64,000 bases of DNA from Planctomycetota bacterium (GCA_029260825.1 JAJDCM010000367.1:16584-80583), one strand, 5' to 3'; shown: positions 1 through 39,854, counted from the first letter of the stretch. Numbers and translations are program-made. Notes: generated by a model not told the origin, from the sequence alone.

Positions 1-1101
1 CACCGGGTCGGTTTCCTTCACGACCTTGCCGTTGATATCAGTATCAAGGACGAGACTCACCGGCGGTCGATTCGTCCACGAAATGCGCTCACCCGGGTCG
101 TGGGTGACTTTCCCGCCATTTCTGGAATGTCCAGACATGTGACAAGTGGCACAAGTCGGGGCCTGGGCATAGTCTTCCCCCAAGACCCAGTCCTTGCCAT
201 CCAGGTTCATCTTGTCCTTCAGATCCCGGTAAGCAACTCCGTGCTTTGACTCCTCAAAGATCTCTTTCTGGGGATGATCGGGGCCGAGGTGGCACTTTGC
301 GCAATTCTCCGGCTGCCGAGCCCGACGGGGCGAGAAGTCATGTCGGCTATGGCAAGCAGAGCAAGAGCCGCTGGATCCATCAAGGTTGAGCCGGCCGATA
401 CCTGTGTTGGGCCAGGTTCCAGGGTCGAATAGGGGTCGTCCATTCGCGTCGGTCTTGATCCGGGAGAGAGCCTCTACGTTGGTCGGAATCCCGTCGGGAC
501 CAGGTGCGAGATCATCGACCGTAATCGCCTGCCCCTCGGTCGCCTGGAGTGCCACCTTCGAGCCATGACATTGCTGGCATCCAAGAAGAGAGCTCGACAT
601 CCCGTTAACGGACTGAATATCGGGTCGCCCCGGCGTCGGCGAGTGAGGGTTAAAACTGCCTCGAAACCCCTCCACGGTCTCGGCAAGAAAGTTGTCAAGA
701 GACGCAAGGATGTTTCCGCCAGCAGCATGATGGCTCTGCGCAAACTCCGCGGCTTCGGTTGGATGACACCGACTACAGTCCAAAGGAGTGACGACGGTAG
801 CAATATCCACACCGTAGTGATCAAACGTGTCGGGATCACTCTCGCCGCTCTGGTGACACTCGACACACCCCACGCCCTTCTCGGCATGGGTGCTTCCTTC
901 CCAGTGGGCGATGATCCCGGGATTCTGCTGCTGGTGACAGTCAACGCAGCTCCGGGAGCTGTCGGGGACCGATATCGAGTGAGAGCTGAGACCCGTTTCC
1001 TCTCGACGCCTGACAACCTCGAGGAACTGAACAATCACCAGGGACGCCAGAAACAGCAGGCCCAGGATACCGATAATTACCTTCTTGATCTCAAGGTTCA
1101 T
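1..1101 (-). CDS. HAO-like multiheme cytochrome c, membrane-anchored, truncated by window start
   Basis: My own translation of the minus strand from ATG at 1101 stays open to base 1 (367 codons). It begins MNLEIKKVIIGILGLLFLASLVIVQFLEVV (N-terminal TM). It has 7 CxxCH motifs: CVDCH, CVECH, CSRCH, CQQCH, CSACH, CAKCH, CATCH. The block CSACHSRHDFSPRRARQPENCAKCHLGPDHPQKEIFEESKHG...APTCATCHMS...THDPGERISWTNRP is characteristic of the HAO family. The ORF track misses it because the ORF runs off the edge. Confidence 0.9.
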   Translation of the reverse strand, partial: MNLEIKKVIIGILGLLFLASLVIVQFLEVVRRREETGLSSHSISVPDSSRSCVDCHQQQNPGIIAHWEGSTHAEKGVGCVECHQSGESDPDTFDHYGVDIATVVTPLDCSRCHPTEAAEFAQSHHAAGGNILASLDNFLAETVEGFRGSFNPHSPTPGRPDIQSVNGMSSSLLGCQQCHGSKVALQATEGQAITVDDLAPGPDGIPTNVEALSRIKTDANGRPLFDPGTWPNTGIGRLNLDGSSGSCSACHSRHDFSPRRARQPENCAKCHLGPDHPQKEIFEESKHGVAYRDLKDKMNLDGKDWVLGEDYAQAPTCATCHMSGHSRNGGKVTHDPGERISWTNRPPVSLVLDTDINGKVVKETDPV

Positions 1102-1129
1102 TCTTCACACTCGTTTGGTTGATTGTGGA

Positions 1130-2188
1130 TCAATGGGCGACAAACGCTTCCCAAAGCGTGAGGCCAATCAAGGCGAACACCGCCAGGATTCCGAGCCACA
1201 CACTGAATTCCGACCCCTTCCATCGGCGCCGGATCGCAGCGTCAATAAAGGGCCAAAGAAACATGACAAAGACGATCAAACCCATGGAGAGAATCGCCGC
1301 AGTGCCCGAGAACAACTTCAGCCACCGGAAGGCGACATAAAAGAACCACTCGGGCTTGATGATCTCCGGAGTGACGAGCGGATTGGCCTCCGGGCCCATG
1401 TTTGCGGGCACAACGGTGGCGAGGAAACTCAGAAGGATCATCAGAACCAAGCCGATGAAAATCTCCATCAAGAAGTGATCGGGGAAAAACGCAAAATGGC
1501 CGCCCCCTTCTCCCTTGGCTTGATCCTTCTTGAACTGGAATTCGGTGACGCCCTGCAGCCGGATGAGAGAAATGTGGACCACCAGGAGGAACACCATCGA
1601 AACCGGAAGCACGGCAGCATGCAGAATGAAGAAGCGAGACAAAGTCTGCTCTCCATAGGAATCTCCGGCGAGCATCATCCTCTTCATGAAAGGCCCAAGA
1701 ACAGGGACCATATCCGCAATATTCGCTCCTACCGTCGCACCCCAGTAGCTGAGCTGCTCGTAGACGAGACTGTAGCCAGTGAAACCGGTCATCAAGGTCA
1801 AAACGAGCAACGTCATCCCGATCATCCAGTTGAGATCACGCGGCTTTCGATAGGATCCGGTGAAGTAGACCCTCATCTGATGGAGAATAATGCTGGCAAT
1901 CATGAGGGTCGCGGCCCACTTGTGGAGGCTACGAAAATACCAGCCGTATGCGACATCATGAGTGATGTAGCGAACCGACTCGTACGCGGTGCTCGACGAA
2001 GGTTCGTAATAGAACGCGAGCAGAATTCCGGTCACGATCTGGATAACAAAGAGGTAGGCCGGCGTACCGCCAAGGCAGAACCACCAGTGCTTCAAGTGGT
2101 TCGGCACCGGTTCGTTGGTGAATTCCCTCAGCTGCGATCCGCTGACCGGGATTCGTTCTTTCAGCCAGGAGCCAACAGTATTCATCAC
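1130..2188 (-). CDS. Cytochrome b of a bc-type (b6/IV-like) complex
   Basis: Multi-TM protein with NHLKHWWFCLGGTPAYLFVIQIVTGILLAFYYEPS, paired-His helices and a KPEWFFYVAFRWLK (PEW) motif; adjacent to Rieske. Confidence 0.93.
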   Translation of the reverse strand: MMNTVGSWLKERIPVSGSQLREFTNEPVPNHLKHWWFCLGGTPAYLFVIQIVTGILLAFYYEPSSSTAYESVRYITHDVAYGWYFRSLHKWAATLMIASIILHQMRVYFTGSYRKPRDLNWMIGMTLLVLTLMTGFTGYSLVYEQLSYWGATVGANIADMVPVLGPFMKRMMLAGDSYGEQTLSRFFILHAAVLPVSMVFLLVVHISLIRLQGVTEFQFKKDQAKGEGGGHFAFFPDHFLMEIFIGLVLMILLSFLATVVPANMGPEANPLVTPEIIKPEWFFYVAFRWLKLFSGTAAILSMGLIVFVMFLWPFIDAAIRRRWKGSEFSVWLGILAVFALIGLTLWEAFVAH

Positions 2189-2215
2189 GTAGACACCCTT
2201 CTTCTCAACGATTTA

Positions 2216-2755
2216 TCAGATGTTGCGCGATGAGCTGGGGCAGCACGAAGCATTTGCTGTCGAGACATTGAGAGGAACAAGAATATAAAGGAGGGTCCCT
2301 ACAACCTTGAGTGGGAAGCGGGTTAACGGTTGGTTTGCATCCTTGGGTGGCCCAGCGATGGGCTCTCCCGCGGCATCAAAGGCACCATTGTGACACGGGC
2401 AAAAGAATCGATCATTTTGCGCCTCCCAGTGAACCTGACAGCCGAGGTGAGGACACACGCTCGAGAGAGCGACAAAATCCTCTGCGGTCTTCCCGGATCC
2501 CTTTCTTGCCAGAGTCACTCCTGCTCCTTCGGGAGTTCGATAATCAAAACTATCTCCCTCCTTGAGGCTTTCCACGTCGGTGACGAACATCCAGGCTTTC
2601 TTTCCATCATCTGTCTGATAGAGGAATCGAGCACCCAGAAAAGCAAAGGTTCCATAGCCAGCGGCAAGGCCACCTGCCATGGCGAAGGTCGTGCCCGAAA
2701 CGAGAAAGTTCCTCCGGGAGACCCCCTCATCGGGTAGCTCAGGTGTTTCGGACAT
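2216..2755 (-). CDS. Rieske 2Fe-2S protein with Tat signal
   Basis: SRRNFLVSG Tat motif; CPHLGC and CPCHNGAF cluster-binding motifs. Confidence 0.93.
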   Translation of the reverse strand: MSETPELPDEGVSRRNFLVSGTTFAMAGGLAAGYGTFAFLGARFLYQTDDGKKAWMFVTDVESLKEGDSFDYRTPEGAGVTLARKGSGKTAEDFVALSSVCPHLGCQVHWEAQNDRFFCPCHNGAFDAAGEPIAGPPKDANQPLTRFPLKVVGTLLYILVPLNVSTANASCCPSSSRNI

Positions 2756-2823: not shown

Positions 2824-2837
2824 TTGACCCAGGTCAA
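2824..2837. promoter_or_regulatory. FNR/CRP-family-like palindrome TTGACCCAGGTCAA
   Basis: Perfect dyad TTGAC-N4-GTCAA in the divergent Rieske/porin intergenic region. Confidence 0.5.
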
Positions 2838-2868
2838 GGTGAGTCAAGAAAGTCGGATTGCTCAATGA

Positions 2869-2882
2869 TTGATCTCGATCAA
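2869..2882. promoter_or_regulatory. FNR box TTGATCTCGATCAA
   Basis: Exact TTGAT-N4-ATCAA consensus between Rieske (-) and porin (+). Confidence 0.75.
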
Positions 2883-2957
2883 TGTTGCTTTCGCTCTGAA
2901 GAGTAGACATGAGGCGGTTCCGGATTCATTCCCATATCGCACCGAGAGGAGGGCTTC

Positions 2958-4373
2958 ATGAGGTTGTCAAGCCTGGCAATGCTGGCATCAGTTCTGATCG
3001 TCCCGATGTCCAGGGAAGTTCAAGCTCAGGAAAAAAACTCGAATACCAAGGAGGACGGCTCGATCAGACAAGAGCTCAGTGAGCTTCGTCGCGAGGTCGA
3101 TGACCTGAGAGAGTGGAAGCTTCAGCAGGAGGAGACGGCCCCGGACGGGACGAGCGAGTCTCGGTTCAAACTCCCGGGATCGATGGGGCTTACCGTGTCG
3201 GGACAGATCCGAGTTCGAGAGGAGTACCGCAGTCATCTTTATAGTCCAACCGATCCAGACGGAAACGAGCGAAACGACTTCACCCGACTGCGGACTCGAC
3301 TCCGATTCGACTTTGAGGTCAATGAGCAGCTCCAGGCAATCGTGGAACTCCAGGACATTCGCCTTCTCGGATCCGAGGGCTCAACGACGGCGGACGCCGA
3401 GGGGCTTGATCTCAAACGAGCGGAAATGTTGATCAAAGACCCGTTCGGGCTCCCCGCCGAAATCGAGATCGGGCGATTTGTCATGTTCTACGGCAAGCAG
3501 AGAGTCATTGGCCACCTCGAGTGGTTTGATCAGGGACGTACTTTCGATGGGTTCCGCATCAAAGCTCAGGGGACGTCATGGTTTGCCGATCTCTTCGGGG
3601 CAAGAATCAATGACCTCGGCGCTTCCGACGAGGACGACAGCGATCTTGTCGGTATCTACGCAGGAACCAAAGAGCTCATGAGCGGGCTTGATGTCGAGGG
3701 GTACATCCTTCATACTCGCGATCAGCGTCGCGGCACCTCGGAGCGTGGAACCCAGGGAACGACCGGGTTCACAACATTCGGAAGCCGCTTGTTCGGAACC
3801 TGCTGCGGGCTCGAATATGAAACGGAAATTCTGTTCCAGACCGGCGAGGTTTTCGATGACAATCTGACCGCGTACGGTGGAGTTGTAGCGATCGGATACA
3901 AGTTCGAGGACTGTCCAATGACCCCCAGACTCGGGTTCGAAGTCGACTACGCCACGGGCGACCGGAACGGGACGGATGGCGATACTGAGCAGTTGCAGGT
4001 ACTATTCCCCACGAATCACATGCACTATGGAAACGCGGATCTGGCAGCTTTGAGCAACCTCTGGGATTTCCGGACATCGCTGGGGTTCCAACCATCGGAG
4101 ACGGTAAGAGTGTCCCTTGATCATCATCACCTCTCCCTTCAAGACGAGGAAGGGGCGTGGGTCAATGCCGGAGGAGCTACAATCCGCCCAGGCGCCGCGG
4201 GAGCTTCCCGTCATCTGGGGGAAGAAGTCGATCTTACGGTCTGGTGGGATGCCATCGAAAACCTCGAGCTCCAGTTCGGATGGAACCACTTCTTCGGAGG
4301 CGGCTTTACGGACGACACGGGAAGACAACGAGACGCGGTGTTCACCTACATCCAGGCGCTTCTCAAATTCTAG
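2958..4373 (+). CDS. Outer-membrane beta-barrel porin (alginate-export-like)
   Basis: Signal peptide, coiled-coil N-terminus, then alternating beta-strand pattern (LTVSGQIRVREEYRSH ... FDFEVNEQLQAIVELQDIRLLG) ending in aromatic/hydrophobic ALLKF. Confidence 0.75.
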   Translation: MRLSSLAMLASVLIVPMSREVQAQEKNSNTKEDGSIRQELSELRREVDDLREWKLQQEETAPDGTSESRFKLPGSMGLTVSGQIRVREEYRSHLYSPTDPDGNERNDFTRLRTRLRFDFEVNEQLQAIVELQDIRLLGSEGSTTADAEGLDLKRAEMLIKDPFGLPAEIEIGRFVMFYGKQRVIGHLEWFDQGRTFDGFRIKAQGTSWFADLFGARINDLGASDEDDSDLVGIYAGTKELMSGLDVEGYILHTRDQRRGTSERGTQGTTGFTTFGSRLFGTCCGLEYETEILFQTGEVFDDNLTAYGGVVAIGYKFEDCPMTPRLGFEVDYATGDRNGTDGDTEQLQVLFPTNHMHYGNADLAALSNLWDFRTSLGFQPSETVRVSLDHHHLSLQDEEGAWVNAGGATIRPGAAGASRHLGEEVDLTVWWDAIENLELQFGWNHFFGGGFTDDTGRQRDAVFTYIQALLKF

Positions 4374-4392
4374 TCACACAACCAGGTCAACC

Positions 4393-5178
4393 ATGATCGA
4401 AACCCAGGTCGCGATCGAAGCTGCGGTAGCCGGACTTCTGGCCAGCGTGGCCTGTGGCCTGGGTGCACTGCCGCTTGGATTCAAAAGAATCAATCTGGGG
4501 AAGAGGATCGGTCTTGGCTATGGCTTCGCGGCCGGGTTGATGGTCGCCGCATCGGTCTACAATCTACTGTGGCCGGCCCTCACCCTCGGGAATGCGGAGC
4601 TTCGACTCGGCTCGGTGCTAAAAACAACCGCGGGTCTTTTCCTGGGATGCCTTCTTCTATGGTGGATGGGTCGCTTTCTGACCACCGAGCGACTGGAGAG
4701 CCGTGGAATTGCAAAGTGGTTGGGAGGTCGAACCGAAGCACTCATCTTCCTGACGATGTGCCTTCACTCGGTCCCGGAGGGAATTGCCGTCGGAGTCGGG
4801 TATGCAGGAGAAGCTCGACTCGAGGACGCGGAGGGCCTGGGGGGCTACATTGCGCTCGCCATCTCCATTCACAACATACCTGAAGGGCTGGCGGTTGCCC
4901 TGCCGCTGCGCCTTCGCGGCGTATCTCTGGCAAAGTGTTTTCTCTTCGCGTTTCTGACCAGTCTACCCCAGCCCATCGCCTCGGTTCCAGCATGCCTACT
5001 GGTCTGGTTCTTCGAACCACTCATCTTGCCTTGCCTCGGACTTGCGGCCGGCGCCATGATGTACCTGACGATCGAGGAGCTCGTTCCGGACGCCCTTGAA
5101 ACCCGAAGTCGAGGACAGGTCGCGTGGGCCTTCATGATCGGTTTCATCAGCATGGTCCTCGTGCAGGCCGTCCTCTGA
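4393..5178 (+). CDS. ZIP-family metal transporter
   Basis: HSVPEGIAVGVG and HNIPEGLAVALPL motifs (ZIP TM4/TM5). ATG at 4393 preferred over the ORF-track start at 4117, which overlaps the porin. Confidence 0.9.
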   Translation: MIETQVAIEAAVAGLLASVACGLGALPLGFKRINLGKRIGLGYGFAAGLMVAASVYNLLWPALTLGNAELRLGSVLKTTAGLFLGCLLLWWMGRFLTTERLESRGIAKWLGGRTEALIFLTMCLHSVPEGIAVGVGYAGEARLEDAEGLGGYIALAISIHNIPEGLAVALPLRLRGVSLAKCFLFAFLTSLPQPIASVPACLLVWFFEPLILPCLGLAAGAMMYLTIEELVPDALETRSRGQVAWAFMIGFISMVLVQAVL

Positions 5179-5248
5179 TTGAAGTCGGCCACGGCCTGCA
5201 TCTTCCATCCGCATCAACGGTCCTTTCGAGATTCATCATCCTGTGAAC

Positions 5249-5262
5249 TTGACCTGAATCAA
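5249..5262. promoter_or_regulatory. FNR-like box TTGACCTGAATCAA
   Basis: TTGAC-N4-ATCAA, one mismatch to the FNR consensus, about 80 bp upstream of the CBS gene. Confidence 0.5.
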
Positions 5263-5343
5263 GGATCCGCCAGATTCACGGGAGTATCGTTTAGAAGCTT
5301 GTTATGGGGAATCGACAAGACGAAAAATTCAAGGAGGTAAATC

Positions 5344-5892
5344 ATGAGCCGAAACCGGAGCCTGACCGACGCGGCATCCCAGTTCCCGGATCGCCTGGCC
5401 CTGTTGACGGCCTCGGATTTGATGACTCCAAACCCGGTCACGATCATGATCACCGCGACCGTGCCAGAAGCGGTTGCCGTGCTCACGGATCTCCATTTCA
5501 GTGGGGCGCCGGTTGTCGATGCAGATGGATGCCCGGTCGGCGTCATCAGTCGCACCGACATCGTGCGAAACAATCACGAAGAAGTCGATCGAATTCAACC
5601 CAGCTCCGAGCCCGATGAGACTGATCTCTGGAGAACTCTGGTCGAATCTCGCGATGACTTCCTGATCGAGAAGGTGAACGAGACGCGGGTCGAGGACATC
5701 ATGACTCCCCTTGTGTTCTCAGTGAAGCCGAACTGTGGGGGCGTCGATATCGTGACCAAGATGCTCAGTCAAGACGTCCACAGGATCCTTGTTGTGGACG
5801 ATGAGGGAACTCTTCAGGGTGTGATCAGCTCCATGGATATCTTGAGAGAACTGGTAGATTCAACCCGATCCAGGACGGCGCAAGACACATGA
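5344..5892 (+). CDS. Tandem CBS-domain protein
   Basis: Two CBS motifs (DLMTPNPVTI...GAPVVDADGCPVGVISRTDI; DIMTPLVFSV...RILVVDDEGTLQGVISSMDIL). Strong SD AAGGAGGT just upstream. Confidence 0.9.
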   Translation: MSRNRSLTDAASQFPDRLALLTASDLMTPNPVTIMITATVPEAVAVLTDLHFSGAPVVDADGCPVGVISRTDIVRNNHEEVDRIQPSSEPDETDLWRTLVESRDDFLIEKVNETRVEDIMTPLVFSVKPNCGGVDIVTKMLSQDVHRILVVDDEGTLQGVISSMDILRELVDSTRSRTAQDT

Positions 5893-5912
5893 TCATAGGC
5901 CGTCAAATAGGC

Positions 5913-6578
5913 CTACGACCCTTCCTTCAGCACCCATTCCGTGGCGCGACGTGCGAGCTCGGTGGAAGTCTGAATCTGGAGCTTTTCCTTGATGTGCTCC
6001 CGGTGTGACTCCACGGTCTTCGGGCTGATGGAAAGGCGTTCGGCGATCTTCTTCGTGCCAAGCCCCGTTCCGATGAGCTCAAAAATTTCGAGCTCCCTGT
6101 TGCTGAGCCGATCAACTGTAGCGGCCTCTACTTTCGCTGAGCGCCCGACGAACTTACCGAGCATTCGGTTCGCGATCGTGTCACTGACATAAATCTCCCC
6201 CTTGTGGACCCGGCGAATCGCTCGAATGAGAAGCTCCGTTCCTTTCTGCTTCATGATGTAGCCGGAGGCGCCGGCTCGGAGAGCACGCTCAGCGTAGAGA
6301 GCTTCGTCATGCATGGAAAGGACGAGAATCCGGATGGCAGAGTTTCGGGCCTGTATCTGCTTGATCAGATCGAGGCCGCCAATATCTTGCAAGGAGAGGT
6401 CGACCACCGCGACATCGGGTGGTGGCTCGATCTTCTTCAGAGCATCGTGATACCCTTCCGCTTCTCCACAGACGCAAAGACCTGGCGTCTGGTTGATCAT
6501 GGCAATGAGGCCTTCCCGGACGATGGGATGATCGTCAACAAGGAGAATCTTGATCGGCGATCCGGAATCACTCGGCAT
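5913..6578 (-). CDS. NarL/LuxR-family response regulator
   Basis: Receiver (KILLVDDHPIVREGL...VAVVDLSLQD) plus C-terminal LuxR HTH (LSNRELEIFELIGTGLGTKKIAERLSISPKTVESHREHIKEKL). Confidence 0.95.
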   Translation of the reverse strand: MPSDSGSPIKILLVDDHPIVREGLIAMINQTPGLCVCGEAEGYHDALKKIEPPPDVAVVDLSLQDIGGLDLIKQIQARNSAIRILVLSMHDEALYAERALRAGASGYIMKQKGTELLIRAIRRVHKGEIYVSDTIANRMLGKFVGRSAKVEAATVDRLSNRELEIFELIGTGLGTKKIAERLSISPKTVESHREHIKEKLQIQTSTELARRATEWVLKEGS

Positions 6579-7647
6579 GGGAGCCCCCCATCAAGTTGCT
6601 TGCATGGTGGGGATCAAAATGACAATCCACAACCATTCCTCCTCCCTCGCGTGCTCCGATCGTGAGGATTCCACCAATGTGTCGAGTCCGGTAGTGCATC
6701 ATGTGAAGACCACGCCCACCTTGATTCGCCAAGGGAAACGTGAAACCCATGCCGTCGTCCGAAACCATGAGTCTCCCTTGTCGGCCCTGCACCGTAAGGG
6801 TGACCCAGATGTTCTTCGCTTCAGCATGCTTGAGAGCGTTGTTGACCGCCTCGCTTGCAATGTAATAGAGCTGAAGAGCAACGCTCTGATTATCGACCGG
6901 AGCTGGAAGTTCATTGTGGAAGTGACATGCCGGTCCTTGCGCTCGATTCACAGAATCCACAAGCTCTTCCAGGGAGATCATGAGCCCCTCTTCGTCCACG
7001 GTGACGGGAACCAGCCCCCGAACTAACGCGCGAGTGTGGTCGATGGCTCCGTTGACCAGGCTAACGATACGTGCAGCGTCCTTGGCCGCGGCGGGATTTG
7101 TTTTCCCCAGACTTGTCCCAAGAGCGCCAGCAAGGAGCGCGATTCCCGTCAGCTCCTGGCCCAACCCGTCGTGAAGATCTCGCCCAATGCGTCCTTGCTC
7201 CTCACTGCTCGTGTTCAAAACCTCTCGCTCCAGCTGCTTGAGCTCGGATATGTCCCGAACGATGCCGGTGAAGAGGAGGCGTTCGTTAACTCGAGTCTCA
7301 CTGATCGCCAGATGAATGGGAAACGTCGACCCGTCTTTCCGCCGGGCCACGACCTCACGCCCGGATCCGATCACCTTGGGGATTCTTGTAGCCACGTAGG
7401 CCTGGATATAACCGTCGTGCTCGCTCCGATATGGATCGGGCATGAGAATGGAAATGTTCCTTCCCAGGAGTTCCTCGTCGGTATAGCCAAAAAGGCGGTG
7501 GACCGCAGGATTCACCGTGAGGATCGTGCCCAGGGGGTCAATCGTAATAATTGCATCTACCGCGGCCTGAACCATGGATTCGAAAACGGCAAGGGACTCC
7601 TCCGGATTCGAACCTTGCACGGCATGATTTTCCTTCTTACTTTCCAT
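6568..7647 (-). CDS. PAS-domain NarX-type sensor histidine kinase
   Basis: PAS (AVDAIITIDPLGTILTVNPAVHRLFGY), HisKA_3 (EQGRIGRDLHDGLGQELTGIAL), HATPase (SEAVNNALKHAEAKNI; VSDDGMGF). Overlaps the response regulator. Confidence 0.95.
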   Translation of the reverse strand: MESKKENHAVQGSNPEESLAVFESMVQAAVDAIITIDPLGTILTVNPAVHRLFGYTDEELLGRNISILMPDPYRSEHDGYIQAYVATRIPKVIGSGREVVARRKDGSTFPIHLAISETRVNERLLFTGIVRDISELKQLEREVLNTSSEEQGRIGRDLHDGLGQELTGIALLAGALGTSLGKTNPAAAKDAARIVSLVNGAIDHTRALVRGLVPVTVDEEGLMISLEELVDSVNRAQGPACHFHNELPAPVDNQSVALQLYYIASEAVNNALKHAEAKNIWVTLTVQGRQGRLMVSDDGMGFTFPLANQGGRGLHMMHYRTRHIGGILTIGAREGGGMVVDCHFDPHHASNLMGGSHAE

Positions 7648-7762
7648 TGCTGGGTGAGTGTCCTTTGCTTTCCTTCACGACCTGAACAGTTCCCCGAAGG
7701 CTTCGCCGGGAGGCTGCGTCAGGTTAGCCGGTTCGAACTCCCCCAGCATAGGAAAAATCGGC

Positions 7763-8770
7763 TCAGCACGCGAGGGCCAGCTCGTCAAGGGATTCCGGAT
7801 CCTCGATCCAGACCGTCCTTCCTTCCACCTCGATAATTCGGCTCTCCTGCATGCTTCTGAGCCCCCGACTCAACGTCTCGGGAGCGACCCCCACAAGGGA
7901 CGCGATCTCGAACTTGGGGAGGCGGAGTCGGATAGGATTCGGCCCCCGGCGAAATTGCTCCAGCAAGTAGCGAGCAATTTTGCTCATGGATTGCCCTGTC
8001 GCAAGATGGGCGCTCATCCGAAGAAGCTTCTCGTTTCTGAGAGCGAGGACCCGGAGGACTCGCTTGCAGAATCCGGAATCCTTTTCCACCAGAGTCCGGA
8101 AGGTGGACGGTTTGACAATCAGGACGGTGGCCTCCGTGATGGACTCGGCGTTTCCGGTGTGCGGCTGTTCAAGGAGAACGGCCTCCTCGGCAAACACATC
8201 GCCAGGCTCGAGGGCGAGAAGATTGAAGGGGCGCCCGTCGTAGTTTGTGCGGCAGACCTTCAGCAATCCCTTGAGGACAACAAAAAATCCGCGGCAGGAT
8301 TCGCCGTCGTGAACGAGGCTCTCCTTGGGGGAGAGATGACGGACACGGCTCGTCTCAGCGATCAGGGAGAGATCCTGAGATGACAGCCCCTTGAAGAACG
8401 CGGTATCGGTGACAACCTGGATCATTCGTGCGGCGGGAATCCGAGCCTCACGAGCGCGTCGCGTCACAACAAGGGGACACTGGGGCAACGTCCCGCAGTT
8501 GGCCTTCTCCTGCAAGGTACGAACGACCTCATTGATTCGTTCGGTCGTCCGTGCGTCGAAGGAACGGGGCTTCCCGTCCAGGTCGCGCACATCCTCCAGC
8601 TCGATGGTTGTCTTGCCGCCGTCGAATTGAGCGGAGAGACAGAGTTCAACATCTTCAGAATCGGGTCCGATAGGTCCGGCGGGAGTTCGAAAACGGACAG
8701 GACCTTCCGGGTTCGGGCGAGCCTCACACCACTCACATCGTGTCCCTAGAGCTTCTGCGGACTTCGTCAT
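7763..8770 (-). CDS. Crp/FNR-family regulator with Cys-containing N-terminal extension
   Basis: cNMP-binding-like beta-roll plus C-terminal HTH (EIASLVGVAPETLSRGLRSMQESRII). N-terminal region of about 110 aa with CEWC and CGTLPQC. Confidence 0.92.
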   Translation of the reverse strand: MTKSAEALGTRCEWCEARPNPEGPVRFRTPAGPIGPDSEDVELCLSAQFDGGKTTIELEDVRDLDGKPRSFDARTTERINEVVRTLQEKANCGTLPQCPLVVTRRAREARIPAARMIQVVTDTAFFKGLSSQDLSLIAETSRVRHLSPKESLVHDGESCRGFFVVLKGLLKVCRTNYDGRPFNLLALEPGDVFAEEAVLLEQPHTGNAESITEATVLIVKPSTFRTLVEKDSGFCKRVLRVLALRNEKLLRMSAHLATGQSMSKIARYLLEQFRRGPNPIRLRLPKFEIASLVGVAPETLSRGLRSMQESRIIEVEGRTVWIEDPESLDELALAC

Positions 8771-8796
8771 GACTGCCTCCTTTTCGATGGACTGCC

Positions 8797-8810
8797 TTGA
8801 TCACCATCAA
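8797..8810. promoter_or_regulatory. FNR box TTGATCACCATCAA (copy 1)
   Basis: Exact TTGAT-N4-ATCAA, 27 bp upstream of the FNR-like gene start. Confidence 0.8.
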
Positions 8811-8812
8811 AC

Positions 8813-8826
8813 TTGATCACCATCAA
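8813..8826. promoter_or_regulatory. FNR box TTGATCACCATCAA (copy 2)
   Basis: Identical 14-mer, 16 bp start-to-start from copy 1. Confidence 0.8.
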
Positions 8827-10739: not shown

Positions 10740-11879
10740 ATGAATCGAAATGGCATCACGTTCGGAATCGCGTTTGGTATATTCATTGCTCTTGGCCTTC
10801 TTGCCAGGCCGGCGAAGGCTATTACGGTGTCGATTCCCTGTGGAACCCAAAGGTGCTTTCCAAATCTCGATCCCCCTTTAGCCCTTCAGTTCACCGTCGT
10901 GAATATCGGAGACTGCGCCGGAAAGATCCTGGCCTTTGACCAGATGGATTGCCAAGGAACGACTCTCGTATCCGCCTGTATCGATCCTGGAGAAGTGATT
11001 ACGATTGATCGCGCATCACGGGATGTTCGATCCATCTTGCTTGTGGCAATTGGCACAGGAAGTCAGGCACGACTCGACTTCACTCCGATTGCGGAAGAAA
11101 CCGTTCCCTCCGGGACAGTTCTTCCCTTTGCCGGAACTACGGTTCCTCAGGGCTTCCTTGTTTGTGACGGATCCGAGGTCTCCCGAGACAGTTTCTCCCG
11201 ACTCTTTGATCGTGTGGGAACGACCTACGGTGCCGGAGACGGATCAACCACGTTTAACCTCCCGGACCTGACTTCCAGGTTTCCGCTGGGTCTTTCCGCC
11301 TCAGGGACAGGTTCGATGCTTGGCGAGACTGGAGGTGAAATCGACCATATGCATGAGGGAGCAAGCCACACCCACGGAGTACCCGGACATAGTCACGGTC
11401 ACAATCTCACAGCGTCGGCATCGGGTAATCATCTCCACTCGATCTCCGGAACGACGAACGCAACCGGAAATCATTCCCACGCCGTGATCGGGACAACCGC
11501 AGTGGGAGGGCTTCATCGCCATTGCTTCAATGCACATCAGGTCGGCAACTACACCAATGATAACAACAACCCTCCCAGTGGAATCGTGGGACACGTACAA
11601 GGCGGAATCGCGGCCAACCAGCCACGAGATATCACGACCCAGAACGGTGAACATTCCCACAGTTTCTCGACCACTTCTGCAACAGCAGGGACCCACAATC
11701 ACTCTGTCTCAGGAACAGCCCTGTCCGCCGGAAATCATGTCCACAGCATTGGCGGCGTTGTAGGAAACAATGGAGGTGGGAACGGAGATCAAACATTGAA
11801 CACCGATCCTGGGACGAATGGAACAACAGGGATCGCCAATCCACCCTTCTTGACTCTCCGATTCATCATCAAGCTGTGA
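10740..11879 (+). CDS. Secreted protein with phage tail collar domain and HxH-rich region
   Basis: Signal peptide (MNRNGITFGIAFGIFIALGLLARPAKA). Collar motif GTVLPFAGTTVPQGFLVCDGSEVSRDSFSRLFDRVGTTYGAGDGSTTFNLPDLTSRFPLG. Repeated HTH/HSH/HLH/HRH/HNH/HVH in the C-terminal half. Confidence 0.85.
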   Translation: MNRNGITFGIAFGIFIALGLLARPAKAITVSIPCGTQRCFPNLDPPLALQFTVVNIGDCAGKILAFDQMDCQGTTLVSACIDPGEVITIDRASRDVRSILLVAIGTGSQARLDFTPIAEETVPSGTVLPFAGTTVPQGFLVCDGSEVSRDSFSRLFDRVGTTYGAGDGSTTFNLPDLTSRFPLGLSASGTGSMLGETGGEIDHMHEGASHTHGVPGHSHGHNLTASASGNHLHSISGTTNATGNHSHAVIGTTAVGGLHRHCFNAHQVGNYTNDNNNPPSGIVGHVQGGIAANQPRDITTQNGEHSHSFSTTSATAGTHNHSVSGTALSAGNHVHSIGGVVGNNGGGNGDQTLNTDPGTNGTTGIANPPFLTLRFIIKL

Positions 11880-37287: not shown

Positions 37288-38121
37288 ATGACAATCGGAT
37301 CTTTAATTAGCTTATTGTTTCTTCGACCCATGACCCTTCGGAAATTCGCGATGCCCTACCCAACTCGAGCATCTGCCGACGCTCATCTGATCGACGACCT
37401 CTTCAACCTTGCCATCATCTCGACAAGCATTGCCTTCCTGATCGTCCTTGCCATGCTCACCTATTTCGTGATCGTGGGAATTCGACGCTCCCGGGGACAC
37501 TACACCCACGGTACGTCCAAGCAGGCCTACATCTTCACCGCTCTTTTCGCCATCGTCGTCTTCATCGGACTAGACGTGAACCTCGCCTACTTCGACCAAA
37601 AAGCCTACGGCGTCGTGTTCAGCCGCGTTCCCGAGCCCAAGAACAACCTGGTCGTCCAGGTCTTCGCCAAGCAGTTCGAGTGGAACTTTCGGTACGCAGG
37701 AACGGATGAAAAATTCGGAACCGACGACGACATCATGACCGTCAACCAGCTCGTCGTTCCCACCAAAACGGACGTCATCCTGAAGATGCAGAGCCTGGAC
37801 GTCGTGCACTGTCTTTTCCTGCCGTCCCTCCGGATGAAGCAGGACGTCCTACCAGGCATGACGGTTTCTCTGATCTTTCAAGCCAACCTGACCACCAAGG
37901 CCGAGAAAGAGCGAAGGAACGATCCAGAGTGGGTCTTCGAGATCGCGTGCGCCGAGTTCTGCGGCCTGAATCACAGCGATATGAAAGGGAAGTTCCTCAT
38001 CCTCGAAAAAGACGAGTACACAACCTGGGAAGAAGAGCAGTCGATCGCGGCCGCTGACTTCGTCGCACCCGAAGTCTGGGAGCACTGGATGGACGGCAAC
38101 AGCGAGGAGAAAAGCGAATGA
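37288..38121 (+). CDS. coxB: Cytochrome c oxidase subunit II
   Basis: Two TMs then cupredoxin domain; CuA motif CAEFCGLNHSDM; VVHCLFLPSLRMKQDVLPG. Start may be 37330 or 37351. Confidence 0.95.
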   Translation: MTIGSLISLLFLRPMTLRKFAMPYPTRASADAHLIDDLFNLAIISTSIAFLIVLAMLTYFVIVGIRRSRGHYTHGTSKQAYIFTALFAIVVFIGLDVNLAYFDQKAYGVVFSRVPEPKNNLVVQVFAKQFEWNFRYAGTDEKFGTDDDIMTVNQLVVPTKTDVILKMQSLDVVHCLFLPSLRMKQDVLPGMTVSLIFQANLTTKAEKERRNDPEWVFEIACAEFCGLNHSDMKGKFLILEKDEYTTWEEEQSIAAADFVAPEVWEHWMDGNSEEKSE

Positions 38122-39854
38122 GTGGCGACGTCGATCCGAAACCGGGGTTCATACGGACCTATGTTTTCTCTACCGACCACAAGATGATTGCCAAGCAGTA
38201 CCTATTCCTGGGCATCTTCTATTTGCTAATAGCCGGTTTGTTCGCGGTTCAAATTCGCATGCAGCTGGCCCATCCCGACGCCGAGGCTCCACTGATTGGA
38301 AAGGCGCTTTGGCCTCAAACGGACGGAAAGATGCCTCCTGAGTTTTACAATATGCTCTTTACCATGCATGGATCACTCATGGTGTTCTTCGCGATCACCC
38401 CCATCGTGATCGGAGCCTTTGGTAATTTCGTCATTCCGTTGCAGATCGGGGCCAAAGACATGGCCTTCCCAATCCTGAACATGCTGTCCTTCTGGGTGAT
38501 GTTCATCGGAGGGATCGTCATGGCCGCGTCGTTCTTCGTCCCCCATGGCGCAGCCACCGCTGGCTGGACAGCTTATGCCTCTCTTTCGTCCAGCTCGGAA
38601 GTCACATCCCCCATCTTGGGTCATGGTCAAACATTCTGGCTTCTCGGAATCGCGTTTGCCGGCACATCATCCCTCATGGGAGGCATCAACTATATTGTTA
38701 CCGTGCTCAACTTCCGATGCCGCGGAATGAAACTGCTGAGAATGCCTCTTACTACTTGGGGGCTCTTTTTTACGGCAATCCTAAACGTCCTTTGGGTTCC
38801 AGTTGTGGCTGCCGCCTTGTTCATGGTCCTCGTCGATCGCCTCTTTGGAACTTCTTTCTTCATGGCGGGCCCCCTTGCATCGGTGGAGGGCGGTCAACCC
38901 CTTCTCTACCAGCACCTCTTCTGGGGATTCGGCCATCCCGAGGTCTACATTCTCATTCTTCCCGTCTGGGGACTCGTCGGGGATCTGCTCTCGGTGTTCT
39001 CGCGAAAGCCGGCGTTCGGATACAAAGCGACGGTTTACTCCATGGCCACAATCGTCATCCTCAGCCAGATCGTGTGGGGACATCACCTGTTCACATCGGG
39101 CATGAATCCACTACTTGGCCATGTTTTTGTGTTTCTCACCATCACGATCAGCGTTCCCACTTCCATCTTCTTTCTGAACTGGCTGGCAACTCTGTGGCGA
39201 GGAGCCATTCGACTGACCGAGCCGATGCTCTATGCTCTTGGCATCGTCTTTGTGTTCTGTATCGGCGGCCTCACCGGGCTCTTCAACGCACTCCAAGCTC
39301 TGGACATCTACGTCCACGACACCTATTTCGTTGTCGGGCACTTCCATTACACACTCGCCGCAAGCGTTCTGTTCGGGGTCTTCGCCGGGATCCACTACTG
39401 GTTCCCCAAGATGTTCGGTCGCAACATGAATGCAAGGATGGCCAAGGTTCACTTCTGTCTCACGTTTATCTTTCTCAACTGCGTGTTCTTTTCCATGATG
39501 TACGTGGGTGCGGGCGGTCACATGCGACGCATCTCCGACCCGACGACCTATACCTTCCTAAAAGACTTCCAGGTCTGGAATCGTTTCATGGGCTATTCAA
39601 CTTTGGCCCTGGCTGCAGCTCAGCTTCTTTTCGCGTGGAACTTTTTTCACAGCCTATTCTTTGGCAAGAAAGCGCAACAGAATCCTTGGCAGGCGAACAC
39701 TCTCGAGTGGTCTGCACCAACACCTCCTCCTCACGGCAACTTTCTCTCTCCTCCCAAGGTCGCCCGAGGTCCGTACGAGTTCAACTCTCCCCTCTCCGGT
39801 GACCGAGACTGGCTCATGCAAGACGACCCAGCTGCAACGGCGTCAGACTCCTGA
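38118..39854 (+). CDS. coxA: Cytochrome c oxidase subunit I
   Basis: FSTDHKMIAKQYLFLG, HGSLMVFFAITPIVIGAFGNFVIPLQIGAKDMAFP, WGFGHPEVYILILPVWG, HDTYFVVGHFHYT. ATGA overlap with coxB. Confidence 0.98.
   Translation: MSGDVDPKPGFIRTYVFSTDHKMIAKQYLFLGIFYLLIAGLFAVQIRMQLAHPDAEAPLIGKALWPQTDGKMPPEFYNMLFTMHGSLMVFFAITPIVIGAFGNFVIPLQIGAKDMAFPILNMLSFWVMFIGGIVMAASFFVPHGAATAGWTAYASLSSSSEVTSPILGHGQTFWLLGIAFAGTSSLMGGINYIVTVLNFRCRGMKLLRMPLTTWGLFFTAILNVLWVPVVAAALFMVLVDRLFGTSFFMAGPLASVEGGQPLLYQHLFWGFGHPEVYILILPVWGLVGDLLSVFSRKPAFGYKATVYSMATIVILSQIVWGHHLFTSGMNPLLGHVFVFLTITISVPTSIFFLNWLATLWRGAIRLTEPMLYALGIVFVFCIGGLTGLFNALQALDIYVHDTYFVVGHFHYTLAASVLFGVFAGIHYWFPKMFGRNMNARMAKVHFCLTFIFLNCVFFSMMYVGAGGHMRRISDPTTYTFLKDFQVWNRFMGYSTLALAAAQLLFAWNFFHSLFFGKKAQQNPWQANTLEWSAPTPPPHGNFLSPPKVARGPYEFNSPLSGDRDWLMQDDPAATASDS

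Follow-up and report, generated by a model that had tools for sequence, protein, structure and literature searches.

An octaheme HAO-like cytochrome encoded with Rieske and cytochrome b proteins in a planctomycete: a likely quinol-linked nitrite reductase

Uncultured lineages that are generally regarded as heterotrophs can carry a gene annotated as 'hao', and this annotation has been read as a sign of nitrification or anammox potential. A planctomycete genome fragment raises the question of what such a gene may do when it lies beside genes for a Rieske protein and a cytochrome b. The fragment (here called the window; 64,000 nt, G000:C298:16584-80583) comes from an assembly of 8.37 Mb that is 90% complete. 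A sequence-only reading had seen at its left edge a membrane-anchored HAO-like multiheme cytochrome, possibly part of a bc-coupled nitrogen-redox complex, in a lineage with aerobic cox genes; a CtaD-like gene is indeed present at 38118-39854.

The operon lies on the minus strand in the order first proposed, namely a Rieske protein with a Tat-type signal (SRRNFL; 2216..2755, recognised by profile and cluster boxes), a cytochrome b of the fused b6 and subunit IV type (1130..2188, by profile and residue motifs) and the octaheme cytochrome (1..1101), with intergenic gaps of 27 and 28 nt. The octaheme gene is cut by the window edge, as had been suspected. The window holds the N-terminal 367 of its 526 aa in a frame that stays open down to base 1 and contains the seven CxxCH motifs counted earlier, and leftward extension on contig C298 reaches a stop after 480 further bases, giving a complete gene at L002:16104-17684 (minus strand in the window). 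No cytochrome c1 or f gene is present in the operon, and its place is taken by the anchored octaheme protein. To the left, a gene of tryptophan 2,3-dioxygenase type is oriented convergently, and two genes for universal stress proteins are also found there. On the other side a PF13372 (alginate-export type) outer-membrane porin, assigned by profile, is encoded divergently from the operon (2958..4373, plus strand); in four relatives (L034, L035, L119 and L156) the porin gene is immediately upstream of the Rieske gene on the same strand. Further into the window, at 10740-11879, a gene encodes a protein with a phage tail collar domain (PF07484); no phage genes were seen next to it.

The completed protein has the eight CxxCH motifs expected of an octaheme cytochrome (at 52, 79, 109, 175, 247, 267, 317 and 388) and scores 77.1 bits against the PF13447 profile, for which the cut-off is 21.9; it is the only PF13447 gene product in the source genome. 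The nearest solved structures by sequence are IhOCC (4QO5), followed by KsHAOr (6H5L) and Nitrosomonas europaea HAO (4FAS/1FGJ). A Foldseek search with the AlphaFold model gave significant matches only to 4QO5, 6H5L and HAO, at global TM scores of 0.30-0.34; these low values are ascribed to a model built without hemes, and heme geometry was consequently not derived from it. The profile score, the heme count and the solved relatives together bear out the suggested membership of the HAO family. The hydrophobic N-terminus (Kyte-Doolittle 2.7 at residues 8-26), an N-terminal helix at 3-35 in the AlphaFold model (pLDDT 87) and a shared anchor motif agree with the proposed membrane attachment, and point to an uncleaved anchor (about residues 9-27) encoded at 1021..1077 on the minus strand.

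The residues around the active site bear on the direction of the reaction. Alignment of anammox HAO to PDB structures fixed the register of N. europaea Tyr467, His459 and Asp267/His268, and a MAFFT alignment with anammox paralogues transferred these columns onto the window protein. The cross-linking Tyr467 corresponds to Trp470, His459 corresponds to Met462, eight residues before Trp470, and the catalytic Asp267/His268 pair is retained as Asp275/His276. All four residues are invariant across 81 homologues, so that Trp stands in the place of the Tyr in 81/81. Absence of the cross-linking Tyr is an accepted mark of reductive HAOs (PMC12758564), and Trp in its position together with Met eight residues earlier is the eHao signature (PMC8940962). 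The replacement points to the reductive type rather than to an oxidative HAO, and assignment as a reductive HAO, eHao-like by residue signature, is well supported. Identity as an oxidative HAO, HDH or HOX was rejected, both on the loss of the Tyr needed for the heme P460 cross-link and on the tree grouping described below. The 81 homologues also share eight invariant His outside the CxxCH motifs (H72, H95, H125, H254, H276, H287, H334 and H450), a count that fits seven distal ligands and one catalytic His. Conservation of Asp275/His276, Trp470 and Met462 with exactly seven further His suggests an open catalytic heme under selection.

Among characterised proteins, the eHao of Campylobacterota shares the Trp and Met signature, although its quinol link is a NapC/NrfH-type tetraheme cytochrome (CycB) and not a Rieske/cytochrome b pair. 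IhOCC from Ignicoccus hospitalis, the best match in both sequence and fold, is likewise without the cross-linking Tyr, but the Asp of its Asp-His pair is not accompanied by His (PDVP, compared with GPDH in the window protein), and it belongs to a distant branch. Kuenenia HAOr (6H5L) is reductive, keeps the Asp-His pair and has Trp at the Tyr position (judged on its orthologues L073 and L081), but is only about 25% identical to the window protein, falls in another clade and forms part of the Kustc0457/Kustc0458 complex.

Homologues with 57-73% identity over nearly the whole query are present in 12 of 79 same-phylum genomes. When the HAO protein by itself was used to query 84,980 named genomes, 558 relatives were recovered; the best 80 of these 558, together with the same-phylum genomes, gave 88 unique loci, whose neighbourhood genes were predicted with a homology-weighted caller suited to GC-rich loci. 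Cytochrome b is directly upstream in 69 of the 77 loci with sufficient sequence, and 67 of those 69 have a Rieske motif within 3 kb. NapA is encoded downstream in 20 of 70 assessable loci, often followed by an NrfH-type tetraheme cytochrome. Linkage to Rieske and cytochrome b in the window and in about 70 other loci makes a quinone-linked HAO-like complex likely. Most loci carry the label Planctomycetota, with others assigned to Acidobacteriota (13), Gemmatimonadota (4), Myxococcota (4), Krumholzibacteriota (1) and Chlamydiota (1) and five unplaced; the isolated outlying phyla could reflect misbinning, since nearly all carriers are metagenome-assembled genomes (MAGs). A plasmid search returned only distant multiheme proteins (Desulfobaculum, Desulfosarcina and Ruegeria). 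Some OFTM-named MAGs from the Oslofjord tunnel carry the operon, and MAGs from that site have been annotated with 'hao' (PMC10732223).

The anchor follows the linkage closely. A motif defined after inspection of the sequences is present in 79/79 copies that follow a cytochrome b gene and in 0/8 unlinked copies (a few duplicate loci included), and three additional anchored copies are truncated by contig ends. The unanchored proteins (L043, L044, L147, L157-L159, L161 and L162) have signal peptides that are plain by eye. Three of these, L157-L159 from Myxococcota (including the isolate Anaeromyxobacter oryzisoli SG63), are close homologues with neither anchor nor Rieske/cytochrome b genes, and their position inside the linked clade indicates an apparent switch to a soluble enzyme.

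In a tree of 58 rows, whose loci include no reference eHao sequence, the window protein falls inside the linked clade and apart from HAOr, the anammox 4574-type, the HAO of ammonia-oxidising bacteria (AOB), HDH and HOX; neither a non-HAO heme arrangement nor an affiliation with unrelated multiheme cytochromes was encountered. A single clade with the anammox 4574-type was rejected by the AU test (p 4.7e-53), as was one with the Tyr-type AOB HAO, HDH and HOX (p 2.4e-11). Support for the 30-row linked clade is weak (45/82) owing to L050 and its neighbours, and flagged long branches make deep placement uncertain. Within the clade, the linkage to Rieske/cytochrome b has changed on four or more occasions. 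A neighbouring HAO clade includes L045, L046 and L047 (from G057, G078 and G040), which have a signal peptide and lie beside NapA and tetraheme cytochromes; also beside these HAO genes is a pair resembling NrfD/DsrP and DsrO, a different connection between quinol and a reductive HAO.

Separation in the tree from the Rieske/b-linked HAO of anammox bacteria indicates that anammox bacteria recruited theirs separately. In the Kuenenia cluster kuste4569-4574, a Rieske/cytochrome b complex is encoded with the HAO-like kuste4574, and nitrite has been proposed as its acceptor (PMC12954380). The likeness to the window extends to a Rieske protein, a b-type cytochrome and an HAO-like octaheme protein in one cluster. 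However, kuste4569-4574 has separate b6 and subunit IV genes, an NAD(P) oxidoreductase and a hexaheme cytochrome, whereas the window operon has three genes only. The anammox loci L168 and L169 show the longer order, with Rieske, a protein of ~590-600 aa where the NAD(P) oxidoreductase would be, then proteins of 256 aa (b6) and 240 aa (subunit IV-like), the hexaheme cytochrome and HAO; L075 and L082 were assigned to the 4574-type by gene order matching PMC12954380. The anammox Rieske box is CPCHGSKY, with a potential of +303 mV, compared with CPCHNGAF in the window protein. Comparison of synteny with anammox bc clusters thus went against equivalence, given the extra genes and the different HAO clade, and gene content and the AU test exclude an anammox-type bc-HAO identity for the operon. 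Of the earlier proposal, the bc-coupled HAO-like complex stands as likely on the tight Rieske/b linkage, while its equation with the anammox bc-HAO system falls.

A closer precedent is Caldithrix abyssi, where the genes for a Rieske protein (Cabys_2558), cytochrome b (Cabys_2557) and eHao (Cabys_2556) are adjacent within a Nap cluster; its authors proposed that the Rieske/b complex passes electrons to eHao either directly or through NapM (PMC5317091). Compared by gene order, both clusters set the same three genes side by side, for Rieske, cytochrome b and a reductive octaheme HAO. The C. abyssi cluster includes Nap, whereas the window operon has no adjacent NapA and about a quarter of its relatives have one; the window protein also has a membrane anchor, which the available part of that report does not mention for C. 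abyssi eHao. Among the loci examined, no cultured strain carried the full operon, Anaeromyxobacter oryzisoli having the soluble form alone, so C. abyssi is the closest organism in culture to show the arrangement.

The partner proteins retain the hallmarks of bc1/b6f complexes (Rieske boxes, b-heme His pairs and PEWF) with the c1/f subunit absent. In the cytochrome b, H89/H103 and H190/H205 are candidate heme ligands, PEWF is at 279, and Cys38 occupies the FCLGG position of b6-type heme c_i, a Cys found in about half of the relatives' cytochromes b. Assignment of this cytochrome b to the ExtP selenite/tellurite family was rejected, its score of 231 being below the curated cut-off of 290. The Rieske cluster boxes are CPHLGC and CPCHNGAF, without the Ser and the Tyr to which increases in potential of about 130 and 65 mV are ascribed (PMC12954380). 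Absence of both is nearly family-wide, whereas a box with Ser is found in the anammox Rieske and in the two other Rieske proteins of the source genome. From this box we infer a low-potential, menaquinol-type Rieske protein in the operon. Altogether the source genome encodes three Rieske/b complexes, and the multiheme partner differs in each. Of the other two, one, on G000:C403 (L177 2025-8056), comprises Rieske, b6 and a 309 aa membrane protein near a COX1 gene, and c1/f is replaced there by an eight-heme cytochrome of 1036 aa; the second, on G000:C346 (L178 4779-7976), has a five-heme cytochrome.

Taken with the active-site residues, these features make it likely, in our judgement, that a Rieske/b quinol-oxidising complex has had its c1/f subunit replaced by an anchored octaheme reductase for nitrite. 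The operon would then probably let the cell respire nitrite with a gain of energy. Complex formation, direction, substrate, product and proton coupling are here deduced from genes, residues, conservation and genome content. Quinol, probably menaquinol, would be oxidised at the positive side by the Rieske/b complex, with one electron passing through the low-potential Rieske cluster into the eight-heme wire and the second to the b hemes. Nitrite would be reduced outside the cytoplasmic membrane at one open heme, on the side of Asp275/His276, more likely to hydroxylamine and/or ammonium than to NO, and hydroxylamine may be finished in the cytoplasm by the hybrid cluster protein (Hcp).

The source genome encodes NarG, NrfHA and Hcp. 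In this genome, about 90% complete, NirK was not found, nor was NorB, the two PF00115 genes looking like COX1-type oxidases. The preference for hydroxylamine or ammonium rests on the presence of Hcp and the failure to find NorB, as in the reverse-HURM pathway of Nautilia profundicola, where an octaheme HAO without the Tyr acts as a quinol-fed nitrite reductase with Hcp downstream (PMC3701875). NapA likewise had no close match in the roughly 90% complete genome, so that the strongest contextual link is confined to the relatives. The best NapA-like match, on contig C294, has NuoF- and FdhD-like ORFs as neighbours and was set aside by eye as a likely NAD-linked formate dehydrogenase. Because NrfHA is encoded, nitrite ammonification is possible without the octaheme protein.

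The neighbourhood of the operon is rich in Fnr-type sites. TTGAY-N4-RTCAA occurs five times in the window, against 0.47 sites expected, and always within 2824-8826; 0/100 shuffles reach five. By motif scan, the divergent promoter between Rieske and the porin has an Fnr/Dnr-type palindrome (TTGACCCAGGTCAA, 2824..2837) and an Fnr-type palindrome (TTGATCTCGATCAA, 2869..2882). Another Fnr/Dnr-type site (5249..5262) precedes a gene for a CBS-domain protein (5344..5892, plus strand; by profile), which may be co-regulated, and a tandem pair (8797..8826) is immediately upstream of a gene for a Crp/Fnr-family regulator (7763..8770, minus strand; cNMP_binding and HTH_Crp_2 profiles, top NCBIfam FtrB). 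This regulator has an E-x-x-S-R recognition helix and is a candidate reader of the sites. Between the CBS and Crp/Fnr genes, on the minus strand, homology identifies a LuxR/NarL-type response regulator (5913..6578) and a PAS histidine kinase (6568..7647) with FixL, MctS and NarQ/NarX as top matches. Together with the FixL/NarX-like kinase and NarL-like regulator, the sites point to anaerobic or N-oxide control in the source species. Two more sites precede a universal stress protein gene left of the operon (L002 14755-14907), and six lie in the first 20 kb of contig C6, which carries Hcp and NarG; among other strict sites in the genome, many are within genes. Upstream of Rieske in relatives, a site was found in 1/53 loci, the window's own, so the conserved system does not include this regulation.

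Three other readings of a reductive or non-catalytic octaheme protein were weighed. Kuenenia HAOr is reportedly proposed to reduce nitrite by one electron to NO. In a variant of the preferred mechanism, the octaheme subunit would do the same, with the favourable half of quinol bifurcation driving the other branch. KsHAOr is the closest solved relative by sequence after 4QO5, the same role has been proposed for the anammox Rieske/b-linked octaheme cytochrome (OCC) (PMC12954380), and the OCCs of planctomycetes have been interpreted as octaheme nitrite reductases that yield NO or ammonium (PMC11266412). However, the window clade differs from both HAOr and the 4574-type, the operon has no NAD(P) oxidoreductase gene, and NO-consuming NorB was not found in the roughly 90% complete genome; formation of NO is accordingly considered unlikely.

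It is also quite doubtful that the complex serves N-oxide detoxification, with quinol supplying the electrons to remove NO and/or hydroxylamine while NarG respires nitrate and NrfHA takes care of nitrite respiration. NarG, NrfHA, Hcp and the Fnr-type sites would suit such a role, and the neighbouring Crp/Fnr regulator could be a Dnr-like NO sensor, but bc-type wiring would be elaborate for it, and NapA adjacency in relatives favours nitrite supply. That adjacency (about 20 loci), the missing c1/f subunit and IhOCC-like relatives with no settled catalytic role would each fit a pure electron conduit, in which the octaheme protein is a large non-catalytic substitute for c1/f feeding NapA, an oxidase or other acceptors. 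This is improbable, given the invariant Asp275/His276, Trp470, Met462 and seven further His that indicate an open catalytic heme, and given that NapA was not found in the source genome. An oxidative module running forward from hydroxylamine to quinone, like that of ammonia oxidisers, draws on family membership and the quinone link and is hardly credible against the change of the cross-linking Tyr to Trp in 81/81 homologues, a tree position separate from AOB HAO, HDH and HOX, and no match to AMO in a search run without a positive control.

If the preferred reading of a Rieske/b complex with a built-in nitrite reductase is true, such a bc-type complex would conserve energy at the quinol step. 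The established quinol-fed nitrite ammonifiers (NrfHA, and eHao paired with a NapC-type tetraheme) are not known to do so. The annotation 'hao' here points the opposite way from nitrification or anammox, towards nitrite reduction and possibly nitrogen retention, and the three-gene operon offers a simpler system for testing the role of the anammox Rieske/HAO complexes. More tentatively, and with rather less confidence than for the window itself, the relatives may constitute widespread unnamed energy-conserving quinol:nitrite oxidoreductases, with the octaheme protein as an anchored, Q-cycle-coupled c1/f equivalent, recruited independently of anammox and repeatedly lost together with its anchor. 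In the literature searched, no description was found of the anchored Rieske/b-linked family as such, nor of its multi-phylum spread, its independence from the anammox complex or its low-potential Rieske box. The arrangement and its reading have already been published for C. abyssi (PMC5317091), and what is apparently undescribed is the widespread anchored family.

Two further regions of the source genome are of note. On G000:C6 (L206 and L207), a NarG operon, an ACIII-like cluster, two transporter genes, Hcp, and FtsH-like and stress protein genes occur together; the surroundings of NarG, examined by eye, include NarH-like, ACIII-like and transporter-like genes, and the region is a probable anaerobic respiration island. 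On G000:C95 (L061), cytochromes with 4, 7 and 15 hemes are encoded with a 1123 aa protein, possibly for extracellular electron transfer.
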